Source of the DNA: Candidatus Solirubrobacter pratensis
GTDB taxonomy: Bacteria > Actinomycetota > Thermoleophilia > Solirubrobacterales > Solirubrobacteraceae
Length of the DNA stretch: 64,000 nucleotides
Direction: 5' to 3'
Assembly: GCF_000425945.1 (NCBI RefSeq)
Contig: NZ_AUEK01000006.1
Coordinates: 372,001 to 436,000, forward strand
Of the stretch, positions 5,786-38,609 are shown piece by piece; within the stretch, counting starts at the first letter, position 1; the number at the start of each line of letters is the position of its first letter. The notes beneath the pieces are model-generated. The model was not told where the DNA came from and searched no databases. It saw only the letters and a list, made by a program, of their open reading frames with translations. Both the position numbers and the translations under genes were made by a program.

Positions 5786-5788
5786 GGT

Positions 5789-8584: not shown

Positions 8585-8832
8585 CGCATGGGCTCAGGCC
8601 GACAAGCAGCGCCTACAGGCAGGCGAGTTGAAGCGCGCACCCGCGGGTGCAACTGCGTGCCCGGTTTCCTGCAGCGAGCGGTGAGCGCGCCACGACCGGG
8701 CTGGCATGTCTCGTTGTTCGCCGGGTCGTGCAGCTACCGCTCAATGCGCTTCTGACCTTTCCACCCGCAGTCTCATCTGGTCGGCACCACCGCCTCCGGA
8801 CGGTTGACATTCACTGGCGGTCGACCCGCGGC

Positions 8833-8873
8833 GCACGCCGAAGCGTGCTCGGCGACTTCTTCGGAGAAGTCGC
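8833..8873. repeat. Two adjacent perfect inverted repeats; candidate oriT hairpins
   Basis: The first repeat is GCACGC/GCGTGC at 8833-8838 and 8843-8848 around CGAA. Three bases later comes GCGACTTCT/AGAAGTCGC at 8852-8860 and 8865-8873 around TCGG. Neither has a T-run, so intrinsic termination is unlikely. Tandem hairpins some 250 bp upstream of a MobF relaxase start are typical of oriT regions. The nic site itself cannot be read from sequence. Confidence 0.45.
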
Positions 8874-9700
8874 GTCGCTAACTGTTGACGATTCGGGATC
8901 GGGACGGACTCGATCGCGTCATGGTCGAAGTCTGAGACGACGATGATCCGCGTCCGTTGGCCCGGCGGCTCGGCGACGAGCTCGCGTGCCGCCGCCGCGT
9001 CCGTGCGGTTCCCCCCGCTCACCTGCCCCGTCCTCGCGCCGACGTCCCGTTGCTATCGCGAGGCATGGGTGGCGCGGCATTCACGGCGATCGTTGCACAC
9101 CAGCGACGGGCCGGCTCCGACGGTTGGGGCGACGCGCGATCATCAGCGGTCGAGCATGTGATCGCAGCTCGCCGCACGCTTTCCAGGCGCGGACGCGACT
9201 CTCCCGATGGAGCCCGAGCGCACGCTGGCGCTGGGCTCGTGTTCAGACGGGTGCACCGATTGTCCGCCGATCGAAGGACGACACGGCGTGCTCCTCGCCG
9301 CCCAGGGTGCTAGTCCGCCTATACGAGTGCCAGTCGAAGGTCTGTCGTCTGACCATCGGATCTTCCGACGATCGCTCGTGCACGCCTCCGGGTGAGTTCG
9401 GTCGAGTCCTGCCCGCCTGCATGGATTGACTAGCGCAGATCGGCCAACACGCTCGCCTGCGCGCGTCGGCCCGCGTCAGAGAAGCGGACCCGTCGCCGAC
9501 CTACCGAGAGATGAATAGAGGGGACGACGACCGCAGCTCGCGATCGGCAAGGGCACGATGCGCCGACCGGGAAGCGTGGCGTCCAGCTGCAGCGTCCTGG
9601 CGCACGGAGGTACATGCTCGGAGGAGTGGCCGGAGCTATGAGCCGGTCAGCGGACCCACATTGCCCGTGTGTTCGTCGACGAAGCGTCGGAATTCCAGAA

Positions 9701-9706
9701 TAGGAT
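9701..9706 (+). promoter_or_regulatory. Possible -10 box (TAGGAT) for the helicase operon, leaderless transcript
   Basis: TAGGAT ends 10 nt before the ATG at 9717, and no Shine-Dalgarno-like sequence lies between. Actinobacteria often use leaderless mRNAs with a TANNNT box at this distance. No convincing -35 is visible. It supports ATG 9717 over the upstream GTG at 9669. Confidence 0.3.
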
Positions 9707-9716
9707 CGCTGCGTAC

Positions 9717-17659: not shown

Positions 17660-20600
17660 TGCGGGTCCGCTCGCCCGACCTGTTCGCCACCGTCCGCAGC
17701 GAGGGCGGGCTGCTGCCCGTCGACCTGCTCGCACGCGTGGCCGATGCGCGTGACCTGCCCGGGCTCGAGACAGCGTCGTACGGGCTCTTCGGCGAACGCT
17801 TCGGCGAGGCCATCACGCGATCGTGGAACCGACTGCTCGGCGCGTGGGCCGCGTTCGATGACGCGCGGGGGAACCTGCGAGCCGACGACGCCGGCGGAGC
17901 GCTGACCCGTGACCGCTGGCTCGCGGTGCTGCTGGAGGAGCTGCGTTTCGGGCGGCCGGGCCGCGGGAGCACCGTCCATGCCGACGGGCGCGAGTTCCCC
18001 GTGTACACGGTCTGGCAGGAGCGCATGCCGCTGCATCTCGTCGGCTGCAACGTCCCGCTCGATCGGCGCACCCGCGGCGTCCCCGGCGCCGCTGGGCAGA
18101 GCCCGCACTCGCTGGTGCAGGAACTGCTGAACCGGTCGGACGCGTTCCTGTGGGGGATCGCCAGCAACGGCCTGCAGCTGCGGCTGCTGCGTGACAACGT
18201 GTCGCTGACACGGCAGGCATTCGTCGAGTTCGACCTCGAGGCGATGTTCGCGTCGGAGGCCTACGCCGACTTCGTGGTGCTGTGGCTCGTCTGTCACGCC
18301 ACGCGCTTCGAAGGCAAGCGGCCCGCCGACTGCTGGCTCGAGCGCTGGACCCACCTCGCCGCCGAGGACGGCACGCGGGCCCTCGAGCGCCTGCGGGACG
18401 GCGTCCAGGACGCGATGGAGATCCTCGGGTCCGGGTTCATCGCGCACCCAGCGAACGACACGCTGCGGGCCGCGCTGCACGGCGGAGAGGTGAGCGACGA
18501 AGCGCTGCGCCGCTACCTCCTGCGGCTCGTGTACCGGATGCTGTTCCTCTTCGTGGCTGAGGACCGCGACGCGCTGCTGGTCGGCGGTGACGCGAGCGCC
18601 CGCGCGCGGTACACGCGCCACTACTCGACGCGGCGGCTGCGCGAGCTCGCGGGCCGCCGCCGCGGCGGCCGCCATTCCGACCTCTACGAGCAGGTCAAGG
18701 TCGTCAGCGGGCTGCTCTTCGAGAACGGGTTCGCCGCGCTCGCGCTGCCCGCCCTCGGGTCGTGGTTGTGGTCGCCCGGCGCCGTAGGGCCGCTGGGCAC
18801 CGCGCAGCTCGACAACCGCAGCCTGCTGGACGCGATGCTCGCGCTGGCCTACGTCGAGCAGGACGCGATCCGGCGGCCGGTCGACTTCCGGCATATGGGC
18901 GCAGAGGAGCTCGGCTCGGTCTATGAAGCGCTGCTCGAGCTGCGGCCGCGGGTGCATCTCGGCGCGCAGCGCTTCGAGCTCGTTACCGCTGCCGGCTCCG
19001 AACGCAAATCCACCGGGAGCTACTACACGCCGGCCGGACTGATCGGGGCGCTTCTCGACTCCGCGCTCGAGCCCGTCCTCGACCGCGCGGCACGCGCTGA
19101 CGAGCCGGAGGCTGCACTGCTCGCGCTCCGGGTGATGGACCCGGCGTGCGGCTCCGGGCACTTCCTGATCGCCGCCGCGAACCGCATCGCCCGCCGTCTC
19201 GCCCAGGTGCGCACCGGCGAGCTCGAGCCGGCGCCGGACGCGCTGCGGCATGCCGTACGTGACGTGATCGGCTCATGCGTCTACGGCGTCGACGTGAGCC
19301 CGATGGCCGTCGAGTTGTGCAAGGTGTCGCTGTGGCTCGAGGCGCTCGAGCCCGGCCGCCCGCTCTCATTTCTTGACCACCGGATCGTCGCCGGCAACAG
19401 CCTGCTCGGGACGACGCCCGAGCTGCTCGCGGGCGGCGTGCCCGACGAGGCGTTCAAGAAGCTGCTGGGCGACAACGCGTCCGTCGTGCGCGCACTCAAG
19501 GTGCGGAATAAGGTCGAGCAGCGCCAGATGGCGTTGGAGCACTTCGCCGAGGCGCTCGAGTCCGACGAAGACGCGATCTCGCGTAGCGCGGCCGCGATCG
19601 GCGCGGTCGACGACCCGCGCGAGCAGGAGCACCGCCACGCGCAACTGCTCGAGTCCAGCGAGCACGAGCGCGCACGCTGGGCGGCGGACGCGTGGTGCGC
19701 CGCGTTCGTCGCGCCGAAGATCGAAGGCGTGGTCGCGATCACACAGGATGTCGTGTCGCGCGCCGCCATCGGCGGGCCGGCCGCGCTCAGCGCCGAGGAG
19801 CGCGAGGTGATTACCGCCGAGGCCCGCTCGCACCGCTTCTTCCACTGGCATGTCGCGTTCCCGGACGCGTACGCGGCGGGCGGCTTTGACGCCGTGCTCG
19901 GCAACCCGCCGTGGGAGCGCGTGAAGCTGCAGGAGAAGGAGTGGTTTGCCACCCGCTCGCCGGAGATCGCGACCGCATCGACCAAGGCCGCGCGCGAGAA
20001 GCTGATTGAGAAGCTGCCGGAGACCGACGAGCCGTTGTGGGAGGCTTGGCAGGCCGCGAAACGGCGCGCTGAGGCGGCGTCGTTCCTGCTGCGTGCGTCA
20101 GGGCGCTACCCGCTCTGCGGACGCGGAGACGTGAACACGTACTCCGTGTTCGCCGAGGCGATGCGCGGGATGATCGGGCCGGCGGGCCGGCTTGGCGTGA
20201 TCGTCCCGACAGGGATCGCGACGGACGATACGACGAAGCACTTCTTCCGCGACCTCGTGAGCACGAGGTCGCTCGTATCGCTATGGGGTTTCGAGAACGA
20301 GGATCGTGTCTTCCCGGGGGTGCACCACGACACGAAGTTCTGCCTGCTAGCGATCCGACCCCCAACGCCGAACGCGTCGGACCCAAAGTTCGCGTTCTAT
20401 GCGCGCCAGACAGCCGACATCACCGACGAGTGGCGACGTTTCACGCTGTCGCCGGGCGACATTGCGCTGCTGAATCCAAACACCGGCACGTGCCCGAGCT
20501 TCCGCAGTGGCCAGGACGCTGAGGTGACCAAGAAGATCTACCTCCATGTGCCGCCCCTCGTCGCCGAAGGCACGGCGGGCGGGGACGCCTGGGGAGTTCG

Positions 20601-21543
20601 CTACCGCCGCATGTTCGACATGGCAAACGACTCGGGCCTATTCGATGAAGACCCCGAACACGGCGTACCTCTGTATGAGGGCAAGATGTTCTGGCACTTC
20701 GATCATCGCTTTGGAACGTACGAAGGGCAGACCGAGGCCCAGGCCAACTTGGGCTCCCTCCCGACCGTCGGCGAGGCTCAGCACCGCGATCCGCACTACC
20801 GAACGAGACCGCGGTACTGGGTAGCGAATCGCCACGTCGTAGCCGCGACTGGCGACGGACCGCCCTGGCTGATCGCGTTTCGCGGGATCTCGCGCGGTGG
20901 CGCCAACCGTACACTGATCTGCTCCGCGCTAGCGCCCGTCGCGGTCGGACACAGCGCGCCCTTGCTCGGCCTCGCAGCGAGATCGGCGCGTGAGCGGCTG
21001 GCGTTTCTCGCATGCGCCAACGCGCTCGTGGCCGACTACTGCGTCCGGCAGAAGACGACGGGCCAGAACCTCACACTGTTCGTACTCAAGCAGGTCCCCT
21101 TTCCCACGCCCGCGATGCTCGCCGAGCCGTGCCCATGGGACCGCGACGTCTCGCAGGTCGACTGGCTCTCCGACCGCGCGCTCGAACTCGTCTACACCGC
21201 CCACGATCTCGATGCGATCGCCGAGGAGGACCCGTCGCTGCCGGGCCCGTTCGTTTGGGACCCGGCGCGCCGCGAGGCGATCCGCGCGGAACTCGACGGC
21301 GCGCTCGTGCACCTCTATGGCCTTGACCGCGAGGACGCCGAGCACGTGCTTGACTCGTTCGCGGTCGCTCGCAAGTACGACGAGGCCGAGCACCGCGAGT
21401 TCCGGACGAAGCGACTCGTGCTCGAGCGCTATGACGCGCTCGCCGCAGCGATTGATGCCAGCGAGCCTTACACAACGCCCCTCGACCCACCGCCGGGCGA
21501 CCCGCGCGCGACGCACGCCGCGCTCGCCGGCACCCCGCGATGA
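17659..21543 (+). CDS. N6-adenine DNA methylase, Eco57I/PglX/DrmMI-like
   Basis: 1294-residue class I DNA methyltransferase. The SAM-binding motif I is [10 protein letters not shown] near 494-503 and the catalytic motif IV is NPPW near 749-752. Large N- and C-terminal flanks presumably hold target recognition and partner contacts. Length and layout match the big adenine methylases of BREX (PglX) and class 1 DISARM (DrmMI). It would mark host DNA so that the neighbouring helicase/nuclease proteins spare it. The ATG shares one base with the preceding stop, and its own stop overlaps the next ATG by 4 nt. No separate restriction endonuclease gene lies beside it; the nuclease-like domains are appended to helicases at either side. 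Confidence 0.88.
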
Positions 21544-22037
21544 GCGCACCCGCCGCGCACCTGCTCGTGATCGGCGAACGCACCGCGCTCGCCTGGGTCC
21601 TCGGCGAACAGCGGATGGCATTCACGGCGAACCGCCGGACGGAGGCGTCGCGACTGCGCAGGGGCGACGCACTGCTGCTCTACACGACGCGCGGCACCTA
21701 CCACAACCCGACGCGCGACCGCGGGCGGGTGATCGGCGAGGCGACTGTGCTCGCGCCGGTCGCTCCGCTGACCGAGCCGGTCGCGTTCGAGGGCCGCGAG
21801 TTCCCGATCGGCTGCCCGCTGCGCGTCGAGCGGCTCGCGCCGCTGCGCACGGGCGTCGAACTCGGCCCACTCGTGCCGGAGCTCGAAAGCTTCCCTGATC
21901 CGGCGACCTGGAGCGCGCGGATGCGGCGGCCGCTCGTCCCGCTCACCGCCGCCGACGCTGAGCGGCTGCGACGGGCGCTCGACGCCATCGCCGGGCCACC
22001 GGAAGCGGTCCTGGACTCGTACCTCGCGCTCGCGTGA
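21540..22037 (+). CDS. EVE/PUA-like domain protein
   Basis: 165-residue single-domain protein with the EVE/ASCH (PUA-like) pattern: WVLGEQRMAF at the start, a RGDALLLYTTRG strand-turn and then DRGRVIGEATV. EVE domains bind modified bases in DNA or RNA and are common in defence islands next to methylases and nucleases, so a role in reading base modification, of self or of phage, is plausible. Here it sits inside the operon, overlapping the methylase stop and the next start by 4 nt each, which implies coordinated production. No enzymatic motif is visible. The assignment is from pattern recognition, without a search. Confidence 0.65.
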   Translation: MSAPAAHLLVIGERTALAWVLGEQRMAFTANRRTEASRLRRGDALLLYTTRGTYHNPTRDRGRVIGEATVLAPVAPLTEPVAFEGREFPIGCPLRVERLAPLRTGVELGPLVPELESFPDPATWSARMRRPLVPLTAADAERLRRALDAIAGPPEAVLDSYLALA

Positions 22038-24205
22038 CGGTCGCGCTCGCCAAGCGCGCGCTGCCGCGCCACCTCATGGGCCAGATGCCGGGCGAGCTCG
22101 CCGAGGCGATTGAGCGCCTGCCCGAGGCGTTCGGCCAGCAGGGGCTCGGCACCAACCTCGACATCAAGGCGCTCCAGGGCCAGCCCGGCCTCTACCGGCT
22201 GCGCGTCGGGGGTTGGCGGGCGGTCTTCCTCCGGGGCGCCGAGGGCTTCCTCGTCGGCGCGATCGGCCCGCGCCGCGACATCTACGAGCGCGTCGCGCGG
22301 ATGCGGCTCGCGCGCAAGGGCACGGGCCTGCGTCTGCTCGAGGCGCGTGCGCCCGCGGAGCCCGAAGACGGGGCACGTGCCCGCGCCGCAGGGACCACCC
22401 GGGCACGCGCGCCGCGGCCAGTCGAGCACAATCCCCTGTCGCCGTTCTCCGACGCGGAGCTGCGCAAGATCGGCGGCGTCGACGACGAGTTGCTCGCGTT
22501 CCTGCGCGCACTCCCGGAGAGCGTCGATGTCGCGGCCGCGCTCGGCGAGCGCCTCGAGGACGCGGATCTCGCGCTGCTCCTGACCGATCTGTGGGAACGC
22601 CCGCGAGTCCACATTTCCACGTTTTCCGACGGCGACGTGCCGAGCGTCGAAGCGCTGCTGATGGGCGCTGACGAGCTCGAGGAGCGCCTCAGCGCGTCGG
22701 ACAGCGCGACCGAGTTGGTCGCCACGTCAGGTACTTCCCAGATCCAACGACTCCTCGACGGAAGCATCGAGGAATGGATGGTCTACCTGCACCCGACACA
22801 GCGATCGATCGTCCAGGCCGCCTTCAACGGCCCGGCCCGCGTGCGTGGCGGGCCGGGCACGGGCAAGACCGTGGTTGCGCTTCACCGCGCGCGGCGGCTG
22901 GCCCGCACCGCGCCGGGAGAGCAGCGGATCCTCCTGACCACGTTCCTGCGCACGCTGCCGAAGGTCTGGCACGGGCTGATGGGGCTGATGGACGCCACGG
23001 CGCTCGCCCGGCTCGACGTGGTCAACCTCGACGCGCTCGTCGCCCGCATCTTGCGCGACGCCGGCGAGCGCGTGAGCTACATGGAGGACGAGCAGCGCCG
23101 CTCGCTGGCAACGGCGCTGGTGCGCCGCCACGGTCTCGAATCCGCCCTCGGCGGCAACCCGACGCTGCTGCTGGAGGAGCTCGACGCATTCGTCATCGGG
23201 CGCGGAATGCGTGATCCCGAGGAGTACTTCGCGCTGCGCCGACGCGGCGGCGGGAGCCCGCTCGCCCGCCCGGAGCGGGAGCGTGTATGGGCGGCGGGCG
23301 AGGACTACCGCCGCCAGCTCGCGCGCCAGCGCAAGCTCGACTACGGCCTCGCGCGCCTGCGTGCCCTCGAACTGGTGCGAGAGGGCGCGGGCGAGCGGTA
23401 CGCCGGTGTGGTCGTCGACGAAGCACAGGACCTCAGCGAGATCAGCGTCCGTCTCCTCCACGGGCTCGATGCGAGCCCGGGCCACTCGGGGTTGATGATT
23501 GTCGGCGACGGTCAGCAGTCGATCTATCCGGGCGGGTTCTCGCTTCGCTCGCTCGACATCGACGTGCGCGGCCGCGGACGCGTGCTGACCGAGAACTGGC
23601 GCAACACCTGGTCGGTCTGGACCGCGGCGCGGGCGATCGTGGAAGGCGAGGCGTTCGATGATCTCGACGAGGACGTCGGACTGCGACCCACCGGCGAGGA
23701 GCCGGCGCCGCTGACCGTCGGTGAGCCGGCCGAGCTGCACGTTCTGCGCTCCCCCGCGGAGGAGCTCGAACTGCTCGGCGCCCTCGTCGCCGAGCGGGTC
23801 GAGGCCGGCATCGATGCAGGCGACATCGCAGTCCTGGTCGATGTCCGCCGCAAGGGTGCAGACGCCGAGCGCGCGTTGAAGGCCGCGGGCGTTCCGACGG
23901 AGCGGCTCGACCAATATGAGGGCGAACACGCGAACGGCGTGCTCGTGGGGACGTTCCGGAGGGCCAAGGGCCTCGAGTTCAAGGAGGTCTTCGTCCCCGG
24001 TCTCGCCGCCGCCGAGTGGCCCTCGCGCTGGTTCGTCCCGCCGGATCTGCCGCGGGAGCAGCGCGAGGAGCGCCTCGCGCTGCAGCGGCGGACGCTGTTC
24101 GTCGGCCTGACCCGAGCCCGTGACCGCCTGGCGCTGCTGACGGGCGGCGCACCCGCGGCGCCGGTCGAGCGCGCGCGCTGGGCGTTCGACGTGCGCGAGT
24201 ACTAG
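22034..24205 (+). CDS. UvrD/Rep-type SF1 helicase with RelE/ParE-like N-terminal domain
   Basis: 723 residues. The first 100 or so look like a RelE/ParE toxin fold: ALAKRALPRHL, then NLDIKALQGQPGLYRLRVGG, then GPRRDIYERV. A linker follows, then an SF1A helicase: GGPGTGKT near 273-280, VVVDEAQDL near 459-467, GDGQQSIYPGG, KGLEFKEVFVPGL near 645 and VGLTRARDRLAL near 691. The GTG start overlaps the previous stop by 4 nt. UvrD-like helicases with a RelE-like head exist, but whether the domain cleaves RNA or merely binds is unknown. Within this operon it could couple DNA unwinding to a toxic or RNA-binding output. Confidence 0.82.
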   Translation: MTVALAKRALPRHLMGQMPGELAEAIERLPEAFGQQGLGTNLDIKALQGQPGLYRLRVGGWRAVFLRGAEGFLVGAIGPRRDIYERVARMRLARKGTGLRLLEARAPAEPEDGARARAAGTTRARAPRPVEHNPLSPFSDAELRKIGGVDDELLAFLRALPESVDVAAALGERLEDADLALLLTDLWERPRVHISTFSDGDVPSVEALLMGADELEERLSASDSATELVATSGTSQIQRLLDGSIEEWMVYLHPTQRSIVQAAFNGPARVRGGPGTGKTVVALHRARRLARTAPGEQRILLTTFLRTLPKVWHGLMGLMDATALARLDVVNLDALVARILRDAGERVSYMEDEQRRSLATALVRRHGLESALGGNPTLLLEELDAFVIGRGMRDPEEYFALRRRGGGSPLARPERERVWAAGEDYRRQLARQRKLDYGLARLRALELVREGAGERYAGVVVDEAQDLSEISVRLLHGLDASPGHSGLMIVGDGQQSIYPGGFSLRSLDIDVRGRGRVLTENWRNTWSVWTAARAIVEGEAFDDLDEDVGLRPTGEEPAPLTVGEPAELHVLRSPAEELELLGALVAERVEAGIDAGDIAVLVDVRRKGADAERALKAAGVPTERLDQYEGEHANGVLVGTFRRAKGLEFKEVFVPGLAAAEWPSRWFVPPDLPREQREERLALQRRTLFVGLTRARDRLALLTGGAPAAPVERARWAFDVREY

Positions 24206-24217
24206 GAGGAGACCGCC

Positions 24218-27200
24218 GTGCCCACCACGATCCAGCACCTGTCCATCCGCGTTCCCTGGCACGACCACGGGTGGGAGGGAACCGTCTGCGACGCGCCGTC
24301 GCGCAACGACGCCTGTCTCGTGCTCCCACGCATCAACGAGGAGCGCGTGGACGCGGTCGAGGACGGGCTGCACGGGCGCGACTGGGAGCAGGTGCGGCAG
24401 GCCCAGTGGCCGCCGTGCGTGCGTGAGAAGGCGGGCTTCATGCGCGCGAGCGAACTGCACGTCCCGATCACCCACCCGTATCGCGAGTACTCGCCGGCAC
24501 ATGAAGGGCTCAACCCGCTGCTCCTGCGCATCCCTGCCTACTCGGCACCGTGCGTCCCGTTCCGCTGGATGAGCCGTGACACGGCGGAGGAACTCGCCGC
24601 GGCGGAGGCCGTCGACTACCAGCCGGAGCTCGAGGAGGCCGCGAACGAGCAGATCGGCTTCAACACGAGCTGGGTCCAGGACGGCGGCAACCAGCGGCGG
24701 CTCCTGAACGCATTCTTCGAACGGATTGGCACGGGTTCGCTGTGCTTCTTCTACGCCCGCCGCGTGCCTCACTCCGACGAGGATCGCAAGACCCTGATCG
24801 GCGTCGGACGCGCGCTGCACACCGGCGATCCCTCGGTGTTCAAGGGCGACAACCCGCTCGACACCGTCGCGTGGGAGTGCATGGTGCAGCACTCGATCCG
24901 GCCTGACCACGCCGACGGCTTCCTCTTGCCGTATCACGCCGCGCTGGTCGCGGCCGAGGCCGACCCGTCGATCGACCCGGCGAGCGTCCTCGCGTACGTG
25001 CCGGACGAGGGCTGGGATGAGTTCGCCTACGGCACCGAGCATGTGACACACGACACGGCGATCAGCGCGCTTGTCGCCTGCGAACGGGCCTTGCGAGAGG
25101 CCGAGCGGGTGCTGCCCGGCGCACGCTCGCGCGAGCTGCAGTGGATCTCCGACCGGCTCGGCGAGCTGTGGCGGATGCGTGGCCCGAGCCCCGGCATCGG
25201 CTCGGCGCTCGAGGCTTTCGGCGTGCTCAGTGGGACGCTCGTGCTGCGCCGGCTCGAACCGCACGTGCCGGAGGGCGGCGATCCCTGGGACGTCGTCGAG
25301 GCGGCACTCGCGGACCCGTCGCGCTACGACGTCGCCGACGCGTTCACGCCGAGCCTGGCGAAAAAGTGGTCAGGGCTCGGCACCCAGCGCCGCGAGCTGC
25401 TGAAGCTGCTCTCGCGCTTCGACCTCACGCAGGACCAGGCCAGGCGTTGGTATGACCCGGACGACCGGGCGCTGGCGGGCATCTCCCTGCACGACGGTGA
25501 GATCGTCGCCAATCCCTACGTCCTCTATGAGGCCGACCGTGACCAGCTGGATCCGATCGTCGTCTCGGTCGTCGACCACGGCGCGTTCCCGGCCCCGGTG
25601 ATCGCGGAGCGTCACCCCCTGCCCGAGCCCAGCCGCGTGACGGACAACCAAGACATCCGGCGCAGTCGCGCGCTGCTGATCGAGCAGCTAGAACGCGCAG
25701 CCGATGCCGGTGACACGCTACGCGGCACGGGGCGGCTGGCGCGCGGCGTGCGGGAGATGGAGCTGACGCCGCCGTGCCCGCTCGACGCCGACATGGTCGC
25801 CGCCTACGGCGAGGCGCTCGAGCCGCCGATCCGCCGCGTCGAGCTGCACGGCGGCGCGCCCGCGCTGCAGCTCGATCGCTACGTCGACGGCGGCCGAGTC
25901 ATCCGCGACTTCGTCCTCAAGCGCCGCGGCGGGAAGCGCCACCCGGCCGTGGACGACTGGCGCGCGCGCCTGGACATGGCGCTCGGCGGGCCGGCCGCCC
26001 CGGATGACCCGGACGAGGAGCGGGCGCGTCAGGAGAAGACCTCGGCGCTCGCGGAGCTGCACGAGAGCCGCATGTCGGTGCTCGTCGGCCCGGCCGGCAC
26101 GGGCAAGACGACACTGCTGCGTACGCTCTGCGACCACCCGTCCGTCGACACCGGCAGCGTGCTCCTGCTCGCGCCGACGGGCAAGGCGCGCGTGCGCATG
26201 GCGCAGGCGCTGGAGCGCGAGAGCCAGACGATCGCGCAGTTCCTACTCAAGATTGGCCGCTACGACGCCGAGACGGCCCGCTACCACCGCTCGAGCGGGC
26301 CCGCCGAGGGCGGCTACGGCACCGTGATCGTGGACGAGGCGAGCATGCTGACCGAAGATCAGCTGACGGCAGTGATCGACGGTCTGCGAGGCGTCAAGCG
26401 CTTCATCCTCGTCGGCGATTACCGGCAGCTGCCGCCGATCGGCGCAGGACGCCCGTTCGTGGACATCGTGCACCTGCTCGAGCCCGACCGGGTGGAGGCG
26501 CGCTTCCCGCGGGTCGGCCCGAGCTACGCCGAGCTGACCGTGCCGCGCCGGCCGACGACGATCGCCGGCAAGGTCACGAGCGCCGCGCAGAAGCGCGCCG
26601 ACCTGATGCTGGCCGAGTGGTTCAGCGGCCGCGCGCCGAGCCCGGGCGCCGACGTCGTCTGGGACGAACTACGCAAGGGCGAGGTGGACGGCACGCTCCG
26701 CGTGCTGCGCTGGGAGGGCCCGGACGATCTGCGTGCGCAGCTGCTCGCCGTGCTCGTCAAGGAGCTCGACCTCGACGGACAGGATGACGTGACCGGCTTC
26801 GAGGTCAACTGCGGCGGGTCGGTCTACAACGACAGCGTCTACTTTCACCGCGGGCGCAAAGCGGGTGAGGGTGCCGCGCTGGCGGCGGACGCGTGGCAGA
26901 TCCTCGCGCCCGTGCGTGGGCGCCCGCACGGCGTCCGCGAGCTCAACCGCGCCCTGCACAAGCGCTTTCGCCACAAGGCAATCGAGGACGCGCAGGACCG
27001 CTGGCGGCGCGTGCCGGCGCCGCTCGGCGCCGAGCAGATCGTCTACGGAGACAAGGTGATCAGCGTCCGCAACGAGAGCTGGCGCAAGGTCTTCCCGGAC
27101 AAGGCCGACCGCTATGTCGCCAACGGCGACATCGGGATCGTCGTCGGCCAGTTCAAGGGCAAGACGAGCAAGATCAAGGGCGCGCCGTGGAAGAGCGAGA

Positions 27201-27946
27201 TCGAGCTCAACTCGCAACCCGGCTTCGTCTACGAGTACCGGCCCTCGCACTTCATCGAAGAGGGCGCCGCTCCGCTCGAACTCGCCTACGCGCTAACGAT
27301 CCACAAGGCGCAGGGGAGCGAGTTCGGCCGCACCGTCGTCGTCATCCCGGAGCCCTGTCGGCTGCTCTCACGGGAGTTGCTTTACACGGCGCTGACGCGC
27401 CAGAGCAAGCGGGTGACGATCCTCTACCAGGGCGAGCCGGGAGGGCTGCTGCGGTACGCCGCACCCGAACTGTCCGAGACTGCGGGACGGCTCACGAACC
27501 TGTTCTCGGCGCCCGACATCGTGGAGCGGCCCAACGGCAAGTACCTGGAGCGCGGGCTCATCCACACCACCTCCGGCGGAGACGTCGTGCGGTCCAAGTC
27601 GGAGGCGATTATCTGCGAAGCGCTCTTCGAGCGCGACATCGAGTACGTCTACGAGAAGGAACTGCGCTTCGACGACGGAAGCCGCCGCCTCCCGGACTTC
27701 ACGATCGAGGACGACGACCGCGGTCTGACGATCTATTGGGAACACCTCGGCATGCTGGGCGACACCGAGTACGCGCGGCGCTGGGAGGCAAAGCGCCGCT
27801 GGTACGCGGACCACGGCGTGCTGGAACGATCGGCCGAGCACCCGGACGGCGGGCCGGAGGGAATGCTCGTGTGGACTTCCGACGACGAGCACGGTGGCAT
27901 CGACATCCCGGCGATCAAGGCGTTTGTCGCCGACCTGTTCAGCTGA
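24218..27946 (+). CDS. RecD-like SF1B helicase with C-terminal PD-(D/E)XK nuclease-like domain
   Basis: 1242 residues. A long N-terminal half (1-600) without recognised motifs precedes a RecD-type helicase: VGPAGTGKTTLL near 622-633, VIVDEASML near 703-711, GDYRQLPPIG near 733-742, ALTIHKAQGSEF near 1025-1036 and YTALTRQ near 1056. The C-terminus has the PD-(D/E)XK layout: SKSEAIICEAL near 1127, LPDFTIEDD near 1158, IYWEHLGM near 1171 and WEAKRRWY. A strong AGGAGGAG-type ribosome site sits just before the GTG at 24218, 12 nt after the UvrD-like gene, so it belongs to the same operon. The protein is a potential helicase-nuclease effector. Confidence 0.85.
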   Translation: MPTTIQHLSIRVPWHDHGWEGTVCDAPSRNDACLVLPRINEERVDAVEDGLHGRDWEQVRQAQWPPCVREKAGFMRASELHVPITHPYREYSPAHEGLNPLLLRIPAYSAPCVPFRWMSRDTAEELAAAEAVDYQPELEEAANEQIGFNTSWVQDGGNQRRLLNAFFERIGTGSLCFFYARRVPHSDEDRKTLIGVGRALHTGDPSVFKGDNPLDTVAWECMVQHSIRPDHADGFLLPYHAALVAAEADPSIDPASVLAYVPDEGWDEFAYGTEHVTHDTAISALVACERALREAERVLPGARSRELQWISDRLGELWRMRGPSPGIGSALEAFGVLSGTLVLRRLEPHVPEGGDPWDVVEAALADPSRYDVADAFTPSLAKKWSGLGTQRRELLKLLSRFDLTQDQARRWYDPDDRALAGISLHDGEIVANPYVLYEADRDQLDPIVVSVVDHGAFPAPVIAERHPLPEPSRVTDNQDIRRSRALLIEQLERAADAGDTLRGTGRLARGVREMELTPPCPLDADMVAAYGEALEPPIRRVELHGGAPALQLDRYVDGGRVIRDFVLKRRGGKRHPAVDDWRARLDMALGGPAAPDDPDEERARQEKTSALAELHESRMSVLVGPAGTGKTTLLRTLCDHPSVDTGSVLLLAPTGKARVRMAQALERESQTIAQFLLKIGRYDAETARYHRSSGPAEGGYGTVIVDEASMLTEDQLTAVIDGLRGVKRFILVGDYRQLPPIGAGRPFVDIVHLLEPDRVEARFPRVGPSYAELTVPRRPTTIAGKVTSAAQKRADLMLAEWFSGRAPSPGADVVWDELRKGEVDGTLRVLRWEGPDDLRAQLLAVLVKELDLDGQDDVTGFEVNCGGSVYNDSVYFHRGRKAGEGAALAADAWQILAPVRGRPHGVRELNRALHKRFRHKAIEDAQDRWRRVPAPLGAEQIVYGDKVISVRNESWRKVFPDKADRYVANGDIGIVVGQFKGKTSKIKGAPWKSEIELNSQPGFVYEYRPSHFIEEGAAPLELAYALTIHKAQGSEFGRTVVVIPEPCRLLSRELLYTALTRQSKRVTILYQGEPGGLLRYAAPELSETAGRLTNLFSAPDIVERPNGKYLERGLIHTTSGGDVVRSKSEAIICEALFERDIEYVYEKELRFDDGSRRLPDFTIEDDDRGLTIYWEHLGMLGDTEYARRWEAKRRWYADHGVLERSAEHPDGGPEGMLVWTSDDEHGGIDIPAIKAFVADLFS

Positions 27947-28006: not shown

Positions 28007-30766
28007 ATGCCCCGAGTCACCACGCACCCCGACCACGCCGCCGAGCAGGCGTACATCGAGCTTGTCCACCATGCCGAGCAGGCTGCCCGCGCTCGCGCCG
28101 AGCATGGCCCCGAAGCCGGCGCCGATCGCTTTGCGGCGCGCGAGGCGCGCCGCCAGATGCTCGAGCGATTCAAGGACCCGATCGACGTCGACGCCCTCTG
28201 CTTCGGACGTATTGACCTCGACCGAGGACGGACGTACTACGTCGGCCGTGGCGCGGTCCACGGGCCTCAGGGTGAGCTACTGGTCGTCAACTGGCGCATG
28301 AGGGCTGTGGCGCCGTTCTACACGGGCAGCCGCCAGGACCCGCAAGGACTCGAGCGCCGGCGGCGCTTCCAGCTCGATCGCCTGCGACTGCTCGGGATCG
28401 TGGAGGACGTGTTCGGCGGTACACCCGCCACCGTCAGGCAACTGCCGGACGTCACACCGGAGCAGCTGCCGGACGCCACGCCGGAGCAGCTGCCGGACGT
28501 CACGCCGGAGCAGTCCGAGGAGCGGCCGCTCGAGCCGCACGTCGTCGACGCGATTCTCACCGACATGGACCGCGCCCGCGGCGCGGAGATGCGTGACATC
28601 GTCGCGACGATCGAGGCCCGCCAGTACGAGCTCATGAGCGATGCGCTCGAGGGCTTGCTGGTCATTCAAGGCGGACCCGGCTCGGGTAAGACCGCGATCG
28701 CCCTGCACCGCGCGGCCTGGCTGCTCTACAACTACCAAGAGGAGCTCGGGCGCACGGGTGTGCTCGTCGTCGGCCCGAACCGTGCGTTCATGGAGTACGT
28801 CGCCGCGGTGCTGCCCTCGCTAGGCGAGAGCGCGGTGGTTCAGTCTTCGATCGACCGCCTCCCCGATCTCGGCGACGTCCGCGTGCGCGCGACCGAGCGG
28901 ACCGAGGCGGCCCGCGTCAAGGGCGACGTCCGGATGGCGGCGATCGTGCAGCGCGCCGTGGCGGCTCGCGTGCGCGTCCCGGAGGAGGACGTCACGCTGA
29001 CCGTCGGGCGTATCCGTCCGGTGCTGCCCGCCGACCACATAAAGCGGATTGTCGGCGAAGCTTGGAGCGCGGGTCGCACTTACCTCGGCGCGCGCGAAGT
29101 GTTCCGCCGCGAGCTCGTCGTACTCGCGCACGAGCACGTCGGCGAGCGGCGCGGGCTGTTCCGCTCCGGTCCGGATCCTGCGGAGGTCGAGATGGCCGTC
29201 ACGGGCACGGGCGGCGCGCTGGAGCGAATCTGGCCGACGGTTACGGCGCCGCAAGTCGTGCGCGATCTGCTGGCCTCCAAGCAGCGCCTCGCGGCCGCCG
29301 CGGCAGGATCACTAACCGACGAGGAGAGCGAGCTGCTGCGCCGCTCGCAAGCCGGGTCGATCCGTCAGGAACCCTGGACTGCCGCGGATATACCGCTGCT
29401 GGACGAGGCCGACGCGCTCGTGCGTGGGGTGAGCTCGTCCTACGGCTACGTTCTCGCCGACGAGGCGCAGGACCTCTCGCCGATGCAGCTGCGCATGATC
29501 TTGCGGCGCTCGACCGCCGGTCGCGCGACGCTGGTGGGCGACATCGCTCAGGCCACCGGCGCGTACCGTTGCACCGACTGGCTGGAGCTGCTCGACGCGA
29601 CCGGGTTCGACACCGATCCGCGAATCGCCGAGTTGGCGGTCGGCTACCGCGTGCCGCGCCAGATCATGGAGCTCGCCGCCGAGCTGATCCCGCGCATCGC
29701 CCCGGACACGTTCGTCCCGCGCGCGGTCCGGCTCGGGCCGGAAGACCCGCGCGTGATCGCCGTCGAGGACGGTGGCCTCGCGACTGCGCTGGTCGCCGAG
29801 GTGACGACGCGCGTCGACGGCGAGCGAACGGTCGGCGTGATCGCTCCCGCCGGCCTCCTCGAGGACCTGCGCGGTGCACTGGCGGCGGCCGGCATGCAGG
29901 CCGGCGACATCCTGACCGACGGCTTGGCGCGCACGGTGACCGTGCTCTCGGCCGACCAGGCGAAGGGCCTCGAGTTCGACCACGTCGTCGTGGTGGAGCC
30001 CGCGGCGATCGCCGGTGCCGCCGAAGAATGGGCCTACGTATACATCGCGCTGACGCGTGCAACGCGCACGCTGTCGGTCCTGCACACGACGCCCGCACCG
30101 TTCGAGCGTCCGCCCGTCGAGCCTGACCCGGAACCGGAGCCGGCCACGCCCGCGCCCGAGTTGATTGCCATCCCGGTTCCGGAGCCCGCGGGCATCGAGC
30201 TCACCGCCCGCTACACCGAGGCGCTGCTACAGGCGAAGTTCCTCCACGCCGGTCAGCGCCGGCGCGGCACGCCCGTGCCCTACCTCGCCCACCTGCAGGC
30301 GGTCGCCGCACTCGTGCTCGAGGATGGGGGCAGCGAGGACGAGGCGATCGCCGCGCTGCTGCACGACGCGGCCGAGGATCACGGCGCGGCGACGCTGGAC
30401 CGGATTGCCGAGCATTTTGGCGTCGGAGTCGCGCGCATCGTGCTCGGATGCACGGACCCGGAAGGCGAGCCCGATGCGTCGTGGCGCGAGCGCAAGCGCG
30501 ATCACCTGCGCGAGCTCGAGAGCGCGGGGCCCGAGGTGCGGCGGGTCGCGCTCGCCGAGAAGCTGGACAACGCTCGCGCGCTGCTGCGCGACTACCGTCG
30601 CATCGGCGACCGGTTGTGGACGCGGATGGCGGTCGATCCGGAGGACATCCTCTGGTACCAGGAGGAACTCGCCGACCTGTTCGTCGCCGAGCGCCCGGGC
30701 GATATGGCGTCCGAGCTGCAGGATGCGGTCGACCGGCTGCTCGAGCTCGCGTCCGAGCCCGGTTAG
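28007..30766 (+). CDS. HelD-like SF1 helicase fused to a SpoT/MESH1-like HD domain
   Basis: 919 residues. Residues 1-710 form a HelD/UvrD-type ATPase: GGPGSGKTAIAL near 222-233, VLADEAQDLSPMQ near 482-494, GDIAQATGAY, KGLEFDHVVVVEP near 655 and ALTRATRTLSVLH near 682. Residues 731-885 match the hydrolase domain of MESH1/SpoT/RelA: GTPVPYLAHLQAVA, LLHDAAEDHG, a GCTD turn, ERKRDHL and LAEKLDNARALLRD. These give the H...HD...(D/E) metal set, with Glu where Rel/SpoT have Asp (ADRLHN). Three tandem LPDVTPEQ-like repeats (28442-28513) lie before the ATPase. The product could hydrolyse an alarmone or related nucleotide while acting on DNA or RNA polymerase; that role is inference. The stop overlaps the convergent gene's stop. 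Confidence 0.85.
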   Translation: MPRVTTHPDHAAEQAYIELVHHAEQAARARAEHGPEAGADRFAAREARRQMLERFKDPIDVDALCFGRIDLDRGRTYYVGRGAVHGPQGELLVVNWRMRAVAPFYTGSRQDPQGLERRRRFQLDRLRLLGIVEDVFGGTPATVRQLPDVTPEQLPDATPEQLPDVTPEQSEERPLEPHVVDAILTDMDRARGAEMRDIVATIEARQYELMSDALEGLLVIQGGPGSGKTAIALHRAAWLLYNYQEELGRTGVLVVGPNRAFMEYVAAVLPSLGESAVVQSSIDRLPDLGDVRVRATERTEAARVKGDVRMAAIVQRAVAARVRVPEEDVTLTVGRIRPVLPADHIKRIVGEAWSAGRTYLGAREVFRRELVVLAHEHVGERRGLFRSGPDPAEVEMAVTGTGGALERIWPTVTAPQVVRDLLASKQRLAAAAAGSLTDEESELLRRSQAGSIRQEPWTAADIPLLDEADALVRGVSSSYGYVLADEAQDLSPMQLRMILRRSTAGRATLVGDIAQATGAYRCTDWLELLDATGFDTDPRIAELAVGYRVPRQIMELAAELIPRIAPDTFVPRAVRLGPEDPRVIAVEDGGLATALVAEVTTRVDGERTVGVIAPAGLLEDLRGALAAAGMQAGDILTDGLARTVTVLSADQAKGLEFDHVVVVEPAAIAGAAEEWAYVYIALTRATRTLSVLHTTPAPFERPPVEPDPEPEPATPAPELIAIPVPEPAGIELTARYTEALLQAKFLHAGQRRRGTPVPYLAHLQAVAALVLEDGGSEDEAIAALLHDAAEDHGAATLDRIAEHFGVGVARIVLGCTDPEGEPDASWRERKRDHLRELESAGPEVRRVALAEKLDNARALLRDYRRIGDRLWTRMAVDPEDILWYQEELADLFVAERPGDMASELQDAVDRLLELASEPG
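28442..28513 (+). repeat. Three tandem 24-bp coding repeats
   Basis: Units at 28442-28465, 28466-28489 and 28490-28513 each encode LPD(V/A)TPEQ and differ at only two or three bases. They lie in a linker of the HelD-like protein ahead of the ATPase domain. In-frame 24-bp units allow length variation without breaking the gene. Confidence 0.85.
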
Positions 30767-33700
30767 ACCGCCACGACCAGCCCGGCGGCGACGAGCCGGT
30801 TACCGACGCTGATGCCCCGCTTGCCCTCGAGCGCGGCAAGCTTGGTCTCGTGGTCGACTTCCAGGCGACCGAGCTGCGAGCGGCGCATCCGCACGATCGG
30901 CGCCGAGCGTCCCTCCTCGATCTGTTGCTGCAACCAGAGCCGGCGGCGGTCCGTTGTCAGGCGCAGGCTCTCCACCTGCGCCGTGACGATCTCGTCATTG
31001 CGCGCCTGCAATTCCTGCTCGCGCGCGGCGACCTCGGCGGTCACCCAGTCGAGCGCTGCGTGGTGCATGCGGTCGACCTCCACGCCGGTGAGGGACCGGA
31101 GAACAGCGACGTCGCGCGCGTCCTCGAGTCGGGCGATCAGGTCGGCGCCGCCGTCGATCACCTCACCGTCGGGTCTGACGATGACGGCAGCCTGCTCGAG
31201 CTCGTCCTTGAGGCCGTGCGCCTGCAGCTCGAACACGAAGAACCCGTGCGGCACGCTGGGTGCCAGGTCGAGGTCAAGCGCGATCGCCGCACAGCACGAC
31301 AGCGCGCCCCGCACGTCATCGCTCAGCGCCAGGGCGCGCACGATCGGATGGTGGAGCGAGATGAACTCGAGCCGCCGCTGCGCCGTGGCGATCGCGGGCT
31401 CGAACGTGACGTCAATCCCCTCGTCGCGCAGGCGGCCGATGAACGCGCGCGCGGCCTTGGCGCCGCCGCCGCTGTGCGAGAGCGTGCGTGCGAGCAGCCC
31501 CCGGAACGGCGCAATCGCGCCGCTCAGCCTGAAGACGCCGCTCTGCGCCCCCACAGGCTCGAGCCCGACGTTGCAGCCGCAGACCGCGAGGTAGCGCTCA
31601 ACGAGCAGCCTCAGCTCTTCGGGCGTGACGTAGCGGCGGCTGCGCTCGATGTCGTTAAAGAGTTCGAGGAAGACCTCGTCGTTGGACAGGAATTGCTTGC
31701 TCTCCTGCTCGAATGTCTCGTTGTCCTGCTGGCGTCGGAGGATGACGTCGGCGATGAGATTGCGGCGGCGCTCGAGCTCGGCGTCGGTCAGCCGGCCGGA
31801 CAGCGCATCGCGTTGAAGCGCCGCGAGGTCGACCTCAACGTCGCCGAGGATCGCCTCGAGGTCGCCGATCGAGGACTCGAAGATTTGGATTCGCTGGTAG
31901 AGGCGATGGAAAATCCGCTCCTCGATCGTCTCGGCGACGATCATGTTGAGGATGTGGATCACCTCGCTGGACTGCCCATAGCGGTCGAGGCGTCCAATCC
32001 GCTGCTCGACGCGCATCGGGTTCCACGGCAGGTCGTAGTTGAACATCCGCGCGCAGAACTGGAAGTCCAGGCCCTCGGAGCCGACCTCGCTGGAGAGCAG
32101 AACGACCGGTCCGCGGTCGTCGCGGAAGCGTGTCACCGCGCGTTCGCGCTGCTCGGAGTTCATCGGGCCGTAGAGCTTCAGGACGAGCAGCGGGCGTCCG
32201 TCGACGAACAGGTTCGCGAGGCGATGGGCCAGATAGTCGATCGTCCCGGTGAAGTACGAGAAGACGAGGATCCGGTCGGCGCCGGCGGCGAACGAGTCGG
32301 TCAGCGCGCGCTCGAAGCCGCCGAACTTGCTGTCTACTCGGCCTCCGTAGGCATCCCACGTGGCCAGCAAGTGGTTTACCGCCTCGGACGGCTGGAGCTC
32401 CAGGCGGACCTGCTCACCGGCGAGCGCGTCGTCGAGCGCGTCGCCGAGGCCGGGGTCGTCGGCCAGTTCGGTCGCCTCGTCAGCGCCGATCGTCAGTAGG
32501 CCCGAGCGCACGGCGTCGGTCAGCCGCGCACCAAGCGCGGGCAAGCAGCTCGCTGCGAGCCGCTGGAACGTCGCCGCCACGAGGTGCGCCGCCCGCTCGG
32601 CGTAGGTGGCGAGTGCCCAGTCCGTCACGGCGTCGTAGAACGCGGACTCCTCGTCGGTGAACGCGACGCTGACGGTGCGCGAGCGGCGGGTCGGGAACAG
32701 ATCCTGCACCTCGCGCTTGCGCGTCCGAGTAAACACGTGCGAGAGGGTGTTGAGTTCGATCAAGTCACGCTGGCAACGCACCACCTGCTCGCGGCCTACG
32801 GCTTGGCCTGCCGCGCCGCGCATAAGCGTTTCGCGCGTGCCGACGTAGCGCGCCGAGCGTGTGAATCGCGCGGCCAGCGCCGTGCGCTCCACGCGCCGCA
32901 GGGCGGCCAGTGCATCGTCGAAGCGCGGCGGCCATGTCCCGCGTAGATGGCGGAGCGCGAGGTTGATGTGCTCGTTCGGCTCGATCAGCGCGCTGAACGT
33001 TTCGGCCTGCGGGAACTCCTCGGGGACGAGCAGGTTCATGAGGTTGAAGAAGTCCTGGCGGCCGAGGTTGAGCGGCGTCGCCGTGAGAAAGACCACAGTC
33101 TCGGCGAGCCCTGCGAGCACTTCGCCGAGGTCGTTGGTGGCGGTCCCGACGTTGCGCATGTGGTGCGCCTCGTCCACGATCACGACGTCAAGGCTCGGCG
33201 CCGCCGTGCCGAGCGCCTCCAGGTTCTCGGCACGGCGCATGAGTTCGAGCGAGGCGATGACTCGGCGCGGCTCCGGGCTCGGCGCGTCCAGGTCGGTCGT
33301 GACGAACTCGCGGAAACCCTGGCCATCCAGGACCTCGAAGTCGAACAGGAAGCGATCGCGCATCTCGCTCCGCCATTTCTGCGTTAGCGGCGAGGGGCAG
33401 GCGACGAGGACATGGTCGAGGGCACCACGCGCGTTGAGCTCGGTGAGGATGATTCCGGCCTCGATCGTCTTGCCGAGACCGACTTCGTCGGCGATCAGGA
33501 GCCGACCGTAAGGGTTCGCGAGTAGTTTCAGCACGGCCTTGAACTGGTGCGGGAGCCGCTCAGTCCTCGATGCCGCGAACGAGTACAGGTTGTCCGCCAG
33601 CGGCTTGTCGAGCTTCGCGAGCGTCATGAAGGCGCGGAACGTCTCGGCGTCGGCGAGCGCTCCGTCGCGCAGGAGGGCGACGGGATCGACCTCGAGGCCC

Positions 33701-33873
33701 GCGTCGAGCGCGGCCAGCTCGAGGTGTCTCGAGCTGTAGACCTGCGCGCCGCTAGAGAAGCGAACCCGGTATTGCGGCTCGGACCCGGCCGTGAGCACAT
33801 CGGTCACGACGCCAATTCCGGACTCTGGACGCGCCCGGAGAAGCACCTCGTCGCCCTTTGCGTATGCGAACAC
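30763..33873 (-). CDS. HepA/RapA-type SNF2 helicase
   Basis: 1036-residue SF2 translocase. Walker A is DEVGLGKTIEAG near 122-133, DEAH is VIVDEAHHMRN near 228-238, and motif VI is RVEQRIGRLDRYGQ near 619-632. A long C-terminal part (from about 650) is charged and partly coiled-coil. It is a second, distinct SNF2-type protein in the same island and is encoded against the main operon: its TAA and the HelD-like gene's TAG share two bases at 30763-30766. The ATG at 33873 opens MFAYAKGDEVLLRARPE. Proteins of this type occur in many defence islands and also as transcription-recycling factors; context favours defence. Confidence 0.85.
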   Translation of the reverse strand: MFAYAKGDEVLLRARPESGIGVVTDVLTAGSEPQYRVRFSSGAQVYSSRHLELAALDAGLEVDPVALLRDGALADAETFRAFMTLAKLDKPLADNLYSFAASRTERLPHQFKAVLKLLANPYGRLLIADEVGLGKTIEAGIILTELNARGALDHVLVACPSPLTQKWRSEMRDRFLFDFEVLDGQGFREFVTTDLDAPSPEPRRVIASLELMRRAENLEALGTAAPSLDVVIVDEAHHMRNVGTATNDLGEVLAGLAETVVFLTATPLNLGRQDFFNLMNLLVPEEFPQAETFSALIEPNEHINLALRHLRGTWPPRFDDALAALRRVERTALAARFTRSARYVGTRETLMRGAAGQAVGREQVVRCQRDLIELNTLSHVFTRTRKREVQDLFPTRRSRTVSVAFTDEESAFYDAVTDWALATYAERAAHLVAATFQRLAASCLPALGARLTDAVRSGLLTIGADEATELADDPGLGDALDDALAGEQVRLELQPSEAVNHLLATWDAYGGRVDSKFGGFERALTDSFAAGADRILVFSYFTGTIDYLAHRLANLFVDGRPLLVLKLYGPMNSEQRERAVTRFRDDRGPVVLLSSEVGSEGLDFQFCARMFNYDLPWNPMRVEQRIGRLDRYGQSSEVIHILNMIVAETIEERIFHRLYQRIQIFESSIGDLEAILGDVEVDLAALQRDALSGRLTDAELERRRNLIADVILRRQQDNETFEQESKQFLSNDEVFLELFNDIERSRRYVTPEELRLLVERYLAVCGCNVGLEPVGAQSGVFRLSGAIAPFRGLLARTLSHSGGGAKAARAFIGRLRDEGIDVTFEPAIATAQRRLEFISLHHPIVRALALSDDVRGALSCCAAIALDLDLAPSVPHGFFVFELQAHGLKDELEQAAVIVRPDGEVIDGGADLIARLEDARDVAVLRSLTGVEVDRMHHAALDWVTAEVAAREQELQARNDEIVTAQVESLRLTTDRRRLWLQQQIEEGRSAPIVRMRRSQLGRLEVDHETKLAALEGKRGISVGNRLVAAGLVVAV

Positions 33874-34625: not shown

Positions 34626-36143
34626 TCAGGCGGTCTGGGCGGCGAGGTGGCGGGCGATCGGGTTGAGGTTGACCAGCGCGGCGGTCCAGGCGGCCTGTAG
34701 TCGGGCCTTCGCGCGGCCGATGTAGCGACTCTTGCGGGCGCCGTAGCGGGCGGCGAGCAGGCCGAGTAGCCGCTCGATCCGCGGCCGGGTGCGGCGCAGG
34801 TGTTCGGCGCTGGCTGGGTCGGCGAGCGCTTGGCGGGCGGCGATCAGCAGGTCCTCGTGTTCTGAGAGATTGAGCTGGCGACGTGGCCGACCCGGACAGC
34901 ACGCCGCGTTGAGCGGGCAACCGCGGCACATCGCGCGCGTGAAGTTCGCCCCGCGAAAGCCCGTCTTTGACGTGCTGATAGCGACGGTGTGGCCGGCCGG
35001 GCAGGTGACCGTGCCGGCGTCGAGATCGATCTGAAAGTGGCGCTTGCCCAGGCGGCCATCGACGATCTTGCCCTCGGGCAGCGGGGCGAGCACGTCGACC
35101 TCGCGTTCAGCGAGTTCCGCGCGCACCGGCCCGTTGCCATAGGCGGTGTCGCCCAGCACCCGTCGTGGGCGCCGACGCTCCGGCTGGCTGTCGATCAGAT
35201 GCTTGGCCTGCGAGCCGTCGTGCTCGCACGCGGGCGCGACATCGACGGCGGTAATCAACGGCTCGGTCGTGTTGGTCGCGGCCGCGGAGAGCTTGTAGCC
35301 GTCAAAGCGCTGCTGAGCGCTCTTGCGGCCGTGACGCATCTCGGTGTCGATGGTCGAGATGATCCGCCCCGACCGAGTCCCGTGATGCAAGCGAGGAACG
35401 CCGTCCTCGTCGACGTCGAAGTCCTGGCCGATCAGCTCGCGCAACAGCTTGAGCGCCTCGGCAACCGCCGCATCGGCGAGCAGCCGATCACTGTCCTCGA
35501 CCGCCCGCAGCGCCCGCTCGGCGTCCTGCGCCACGCGCGTGAGCATCCGCTCGCGCTCGGCCTTCTCGCGCCAGCGGCAATCCGGCTTCTCGCCCGGCCG
35601 CTGGTAGTCGAACTCCAGGCCGCGATCGAGCTGACCAGCGGCCCGCTGGTCGACGGCCGCGACGGCATCGAGCAGCTTCTTGACGCCGTGGCGCACCAGC
35701 CGAACCGTGTCCTGCGTCGCCGCCGCGCCGAGCATCGGCGTGGAGTCGATGATCTGCTCGACCGGCCCGTCGAGCATCCCGAGCTCTTCGGCGATCCGCA
35801 GCGTGCGCTCCAGCGCGACCCGCTCGAGCTCGTGCAACAACAGCCGCGCGCGGAACTTCGTCAACGACGTCGGATGCCAGCCCTGATGATCGACCGACAG
35901 CCCGAGCGCGATCTTCCAGCGCAGATCCCACGCCACACACTCCATCGCCTGCTCATCCGACGCGCCCGTGCGGTACTGCAACAACAACACCTTGGCCAGC
36001 TGTGACGGCGGGATCGACGGCCGACCCATCCGCTGCGAATAGCACGCCGCGAAGTCCTCATCACGCACGATCCGATCCCCGCTCAGCCAACAACAACGCG
36101 AAAAACGATCCCGGCGGAAGCGGCCGAGCAAGCCCGGCCGCAT
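34626..36143 (-). CDS. IS1182-family transposase
   Basis: 505-residue DDE transposase, complete. The N-terminal helical domain (DUF772-like) includes FSRCCWLSGDRIV and SQLAKVLLLQYRTGASDEQA. Catalytic-region motifs include IIDSTPMLGAA near 150 and LGDTAYGNG near 330. A GCPLNAACCPG cysteine cluster lies near 410, and a typical tail RPRIERLLGLLAARYGARKS carries the last acidic residue and basic region. I use ATG 36143; a TTG directly before it is also in frame. The length matches the family. Confidence 0.92.
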   Translation of the reverse strand: MRPGLLGRFRRDRFSRCCWLSGDRIVRDEDFAACYSQRMGRPSIPPSQLAKVLLLQYRTGASDEQAMECVAWDLRWKIALGLSVDHQGWHPTSLTKFRARLLLHELERVALERTLRIAEELGMLDGPVEQIIDSTPMLGAAATQDTVRLVRHGVKKLLDAVAAVDQRAAGQLDRGLEFDYQRPGEKPDCRWREKAERERMLTRVAQDAERALRAVEDSDRLLADAAVAEALKLLRELIGQDFDVDEDGVPRLHHGTRSGRIISTIDTEMRHGRKSAQQRFDGYKLSAAATNTTEPLITAVDVAPACEHDGSQAKHLIDSQPERRRPRRVLGDTAYGNGPVRAELAEREVDVLAPLPEGKIVDGRLGKRHFQIDLDAGTVTCPAGHTVAISTSKTGFRGANFTRAMCRGCPLNAACCPGRPRRQLNLSEHEDLLIAARQALADPASAEHLRRTRPRIERLLGLLAARYGARKSRYIGRAKARLQAAWTAALVNLNPIARHLAAQTA

Positions 36144-36216
36144 CAAAGAACCCGACCTGGCCAGACGTCGTCGCGAGCATCACCAAATGCTCTTAAACCC
36201 GCCGGACAGAGCCGCG

Positions 36217-38536: not shown

Positions 38537-38609
38537 AGCCGACGCCCGGACTCGAACCGGGGACCCCTTCATTACGAGTGAAGTGCTCTACCAGCTGAGC
38601 TACGTCGGC
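38537..38609 (-). tRNA. tRNA-Thr (anticodon CGT)
   Basis: Full cloverleaf on the minus strand: acceptor GCCGACG/CGTCGGC, D-stem GCTC/GAGC with AGCTGGTA loop, anticodon stem CTTCA/TGAAG with loop CTCGTAA (anticodon CGT, reads ACG), 5-nt variable loop, T-arm CCCGG-TTCGAGT-CCGGG, discriminator T. CCA is not encoded. Its 3' end faces the conjugative element, so it is the likely integration site. Confidence 0.97.

Follow-up and report, generated by a model that had tools for sequence, protein, structure and literature searches.

A HelD-like motor joined to a small-alarmone-hydrolase-type HD domain in actinobacterial defense islands

The fusion gene and its surroundings

The window analyzed here is the whole stretch of 64,000 nucleotides from Candidatus Solirubrobacter pratensis. 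One of its genes is a single open reading frame of 919 amino acids, free of internal stops, in which a HelD-like SF1 NTPase (residues 1–700) and a C-terminal HD domain of the small alarmone hydrolase (SAH) type form one chain (Table 1). Judged by sequence comparison, the matches to both halves are far above chance. In Pfam these are HD_4 (E 2e-17, above the cut-off) and UvrD-helicase (E 1e-10), while the NCBIfam HelR and HelD models match the motor with E values from 2e-93 to 5e-39 (HelR_2 2e-93; HelD_MYCSM 4e-83). In the PDB, MsHelD (6yxu, E 5.5e-67) and the SAH 7qoe (E 4e-38, residues 732–911) match within the same chain. A preliminary description of the locus had placed SF1 motifs in residues 220–700, and all of these are present and intact; the HD motifs that it listed in order, HLQ, LLHDAAEDHG and LAEKLDN, are found at residues 762–764, 784–793 and 849–855. 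An AlphaFold2 model made without an alignment was uninformative (pLDDT 39) and was not used.

The fusion gene closes a run of genes that all point the same way (9669–30766). Upstream of it, YprA-like, BrxHII-like and PglX-like genes occur together in one operon, as is characteristic of ARMADA (PMC12458937). A further gene of the operon may correspond to the GajB/RelE-like gene of that system; its GajB match has an E value of 1.6e-21, and its N-terminal ParE_toxin match is weak (17.6 bits, below the cut-off). The operon has the gene order of type I ARMADA, yet what looks like the helicase gene of type II. A word search of the ARMADA paper (PMC12458937) returned no HelD or alarmone terms. A simple scan of the gap before the fusion gene revealed neither a promoter nor a terminator.

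Beside the operon is a gene for a TrwC-type relaxase joined to a helicase, which points to a conjugative or mobilizable element. Just past the DrmD-like gene lies a putative IS1182-like transposase gene, and about 5 kb past the DrmD-like gene is a tRNA-Thr gene, a possible integration site.

Table 1. Features of the fusion gene and its neighborhood in the window.
Feature	Position	Strand	Basis
TrwC-type relaxase joined to helicase	5789–8584	-	
ARMADA-like operon	9669–24205	+	Profile matches; composition compared with PMC12458937
YprA/DruE-like	9669–14852	+	
BrxHII/DpdE-like	14792–17659	+	
PglX/DrmMI-like methylase	17659–21543	+	
Small PRK00809-like protein	21540–22037	+	
GajB-like helicase, weak RelE/ParE-like N-terminus	22034–24205	+	
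PDC-S68 candidate defense protein (RecD-like helicase), 61 bp upstream of fusion gene	24218–27946	+	
Whole fusion gene, HelD-like motor and small-alarmone-hydrolase HD domain	28007–30766	+	Pfam, NCBIfam, PDB matches
N-terminal domain (residues 1–140), homologue of MsHelD coiled coil and globular domain	28007–28426	+	Residues 25–138 vs MsHelD 34–146, i-Evalue 1e-6
NTPase 1A, first part (residues 182–282), Walker A GGPGSGKT 222–229	28550–28852	+	MsHelD alignment, motif
Clamp-opening-like (CO) insertion (residues 283–471), most divergent part	28853–29419	+	Aligns with MsHelD 261–447
Site of missing PCh-loop and 1A extension (MsHelD 448–521)	29420–29434	+	MsHelD 447 to 520 = residues 472 to 477
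NTPase 1A-2/2A (residues 477–699), DEAQD 485–489, GDIAQ 511–515, GYRVPR 546–551, KGLEFD 653–658, ALTRAT 681–686	29435–30103	+	MsHelD alignment, motifs
Pro/Glu-rich linker (residues 700–727)	30104–30187	+	Sequence
SAH-type HD domain (residues 728–912): H762, H786, D787, E790, D791, E851, N855	30188–30742	+	Pfam, PDB, alignment
DrmD-like SNF2 helicase, convergent, 4-bp overlap with fusion gene	30763–33873	-	
IS1182-like transposase	34626–36146	-	By eye
tRNA-Thr (CGT)	38537–38609	-	

Distribution and origin of the fusion

Screening of 101 near relatives revealed two more full-length fusions: one of 933 amino acids (51% identity) in G067, a genome of the same order and another family, and one of 1069 amino acids (46% identity) in G055, of the same family and another genus. 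The N-terminal sequences of all three agree around HPDHAAEQAY. Neither of the two findings named beforehand as fatal to the join applies: it is not absent from all relatives, and a frameshift merging two genes is excluded by these full-length copies from different genomes. With frames open throughout in two independent assemblies and nothing in its favor, a frameshift, misassembly or chance open frame has a practically negligible probability, and we rejected it.

No fourth fusion was found in overlapping sets comprising 396 genomes from across the phylum, 232 from the same order, 399 from the same class and another 395 from actinobacteria. Three copies are all that are known. Two candidate partial fusions, in G519 and G550, proved to be a HelD gene at a contig end and a broken stand-alone HelD gene, and a short-peptide scan of genome contigs recovered only a single stand-alone HelD, from Amycolatopsis. 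Plasmids and viral contigs yielded no fusion in our search, and spread by phage or plasmid was rejected on this basis.

The three fusions form one clade both in the tree of the helicase halves (SH-aLRT 98), from which a mistranslated Streptomyces HelR row (L102) was left out, and in that of the HD halves (support 100/99). Since both halves form well-supported clades, a single fusion event, maintained despite strong sequence divergence, fits the phylogenies as the simplest account. Identity among the three is 55–67% in the HD domain, 56–66% in 1A and 49–55% in 2A, and falls to 36–43% in the N-terminal domain and 35% in the CO domain. As neither the NTPase motifs nor the HD/ED motifs vary among the three, and the HD domain is so well preserved although the CO domain is just 35% identical, both halves are under constraint. 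The linker of the G055 protein spans about 200 residues, a large part of which is acidic.

A HelD-like motor without the primary-channel loop

The motor shares with class II HelD and HelR an N-terminal secondary-channel domain, a split 1A/2A NTPase with a CO insertion between the 1A halves, and all NTPase motifs. The N-terminal domain is predicted from homology to MsHelD 34–146 and to 8r6p_H; in MsHelD this domain enters the secondary channel of RNA polymerase (RNAP) (PMC7749160). A second alignment block pairs residues 182–472 with MsHelD 159–447, after which the alignment jumps to MsHelD 520. Kouba et al. define MsHelD residues 448–503 as the PCh-loop and 504–521 as the 1A extension (PMC7749160). 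The fusion has no counterpart of 448–503, with 37 residues where true HelD/HelR have 107–108, and it carries an extra C-terminal HD domain. From this definition and the jump in the alignment, the fusion lacks the segment with which class II HelD extends to the RNAP active site, and because the PCh-loop serves nucleic-acid displacement in class II HelD, RNAP clearing by the fusion could differ or fail altogether. Class III HelD proteins likewise have no PCh-loop (PMC8655204).

The stand-alone HelD-like relatives that we examined share the missing loop, whereas true HelD/HelR proteins (L045, L101) keep it, which places the fusion motor, by sequence, in a widespread and apparently unstudied loop-less HelD-like subfamily of Actinobacteria. 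Its other members (for example L120 and L127, about 40% identical) fall into one clade with the fusions but have no HD domain and, unlike the fusions, lie mostly outside defense islands; we found no name for them. Across L120–L139, such proteins resemble HelR/HelD and score far under the family cut-offs. The window protein itself reaches 313.9, 279.7 and 278.1 bits against curated NCBIfam cut-offs of 1100, 1051 and 750, and the best HelR_2 scores are 314–338 bits (cut-off 1100), with the other HelD/HelR cut-offs also missed. The preliminary reading of the helicase as HelD-like is thus borne out at the level of homology, but assignment to HelD/HelR proper is rejected, given the missing PCh-loop and the scores below the family cut-offs.

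An SAH-type HD domain with an altered metal ligand

The best solved relative of the HD domain is 7qoe, at E 4e-38 to 2e-39 over 180 residues. Residues H762, H786, D787, E790, D791 and N855 correspond to those of the Rel/SAH active site, and E790 and D791 (of HDxxED) and N855 are invariant across the fusions. The fourth metal ligand, equivalent to Asp144 of RelSeq, is however Glu (E851) in all three fusions, which therefore depart from the four-ligand set of His, His, Asp and Asp. Its equivalent is Asp in all aligned solved or related hydrolases covering the site except one (in G381). The change from Asp to Glu is conservative; we count it against the functional interpretation favored below.

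Among known enzymes, the entire domain aligns with RelH/MixSpo SAHs, namely Leptospira levettii 7qoe (E 2e-39) and Corynebacterium glutamicum RelH 7qoc/7qod (E 4e-15). HDxxED and the Asn are common to these enzymes and the fusion, but they are separate small proteins with an Asp ligand, while the fusion has Glu and is joined to a motor. Hydrolysis of (p)ppGpp has been described for enzymes of the RelH type and for a related SAH from T. denticola, whose activity depends on Mn2+ (PMC10434055). With MESH1 and the long Rel/SpoT proteins, the fusion shares the HD superfamily and motif order, at lower similarity and without synthetase, TGS or ACT domains. Of the SpoT/MESH1-like hydrolase originally described, the hydrolase-type HD domain stands, but its closest affinity is to RelH-type SAHs (7qoe), and it has itself undergone an Asp-to-Glu change at a metal ligand.

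The altered ligand bears on two alternative explanations. It could mean that catalysis by the HD half is weak and that this half serves as a regulator, gating the motor by binding alarmone, as the presence of the altered ligand in all three copies would allow; a pure binding domain would need none of the other catalytic residues, yet these, HDxxED and the last motif's Asn among them, are invariant, and we regard such gating as quite improbable. A shifted ligand could also mean a shifted substrate. Helicase-plus-effector fusions are common in defense, and NADPH and CoA are among the substrates open to HD enzymes of the MESH1 type. MESH1 has been described as a CoA phosphatase (PMC13221220). Together with the defense-island setting, these points are compatible with an abortive-infection sensor-effector, in which aberrant DNA or a takeover of RNAP would be sensed by the HelD-like half, whereupon the HD half would destroy a vital nucleotide (such as NADPH, CoA or a dNTP), so that growth stops. 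We consider this unlikely, as the HD domain is nearest to RelH alarmone hydrolases, alarmone hydrolysis is not in itself toxic, and the protein has no sensor domain beyond its HelD homology.

In another actinobacterium (G381, L079), a HelD-like gene (5374–7404, minus strand) and an SAH gene (approximately 7470–8081, plus strand) lie side by side in divergent orientation. The Asp-to-Glu change of the fusions recurs in this SAH (AAEKLHN), in which HDTVEH also replaces HDxxED.

Genomic context

The preliminary description had asked whether the fusion always lies in defense islands. All three copies do, although their neighbors differ: ARMADA-like in the window, type IIG/GmrSD in G067 and DISARM-like in G055. 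In G067 the gene is flanked by PDC-M33A on one side and a type IIG enzyme on the other, and GmrSD, a C5 methylase and a PDC-S68 homologue are close by, while in G055 it is accompanied by DrmB, a NERD helicase, Vsr, PDC-M33A, DrmA and a C5 methylase. There is no fixed partner gene. The fusion is not a constant component of ARMADA, as the two other copies adjoin other systems, and a role as a constant ARMADA or DISARM subunit was rejected on account of the varying partners. Third-position GC in the G067 and G055 islands is lower than in much of their flanks, which fits acquisition.

Stand-alone HelD-like relatives are mostly found outside such islands. Of 20 of their loci, a single one (G906) shares defense genes with the fusion islands, in a comparison whose query set is biased through being drawn from those islands. 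When 75 close neighbors of stand-alone HelD-like genes were scanned with PADLOC, which is free of this bias, few of them matched defense models; the hits were scattered over 20 families, the majority of which were represented by just one protein.

No full HelD-like gene besides the fusion was found in any of the three genomes, and the fusion may therefore serve as the housekeeping HelD copy; each of the six congeners of the window's species, by contrast, carries a stand-alone HelD-like gene. A stand-alone RelH-type SAH was found in G055 but not in the window's species or in G067. With genomes that are 93–96% complete, this pattern of copy numbers is suggestive only.

The sole-copy pattern, the differing neighbors and the TrwC relaxase upstream would fit a general stress factor carried on mobile DNA beside defense genes with no part in defense, combining a HelR-like RNAP-protection or antibiotic-tolerance protein with an alarmone hydrolase. 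HelR has been described as conferring rifampicin tolerance in actinobacteria (PMC10719064). However, the fusion lacks the loop for which a role in rifampicin removal has been proposed, and all three copies are in defense islands whereas stand-alone relatives mostly are not; we find such a passenger role rather unlikely.

Possible function

That three distantly related bacteria share this join, and that anti-phage genes surround it in every one of them, indicates that the fusion is real and that it looks like an undescribed defense-associated protein. A literature search, with subscription papers mostly outside its coverage, found no account of HelD or any other helicase joined to an alarmone hydrolase, nor of HelD taking part in phage defense. 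The fusion is a new arrangement of known parts.

To the observed anatomy, conservation, single fusion event, island context and kept catalytic motifs, we would tentatively put the following interpretation: an RNAP-directed motor with a tethered alarmone hydrolase, which is a movable accessory of defense islands and not a fixed subunit of one system. We regard this as quite possible, if short of probable. Going by its family, the HelD-like half would bind RNAP, with its N-terminal coiled coil in the secondary channel and the clamp-opening domain in the primary channel, and turnover of ATP or GTP would pry stalled RNAP off the DNA. The flexibly tethered HD domain, again by family resemblance, would hydrolyze (p)ppGpp, or a 3'-pyrophosphorylated nucleotide related to it, in the vicinity of that RNAP. 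The host has one long bifunctional Rel with a synthetase, and one other HD_4 protein, so that (p)ppGpp is probably made in this organism. For infection we can only conjecture that phage or host DNA might be cleared of stalled RNAP for neighboring helicase/methylase systems, and that transcription might be released from the stress signal. The more specific proposal of an anti-phage accessory that couples removal of RNAP from DNA with destruction of alarmone at RNAP, and is carried between defense islands of different types, is in our estimation doubtful.

Alarmone enzymes and RNAP-recycling motors have hitherto been studied separately. An evolutionarily kept fusion in defense islands suggests a direct link between clearing of RNAP from DNA and erasure of the stringent signal, a link that a single gene now opens to testing. 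The fusion further points attention to the widespread loop-less HelD-like subfamily, for which the G906 locus (L133) is a second kind of case, in a likely defense island and without an HD domain: its stand-alone HelD-like gene (8496–10778) lies near a gene for a Z1-domain protein and homologues of the NERD helicase and Vsr.
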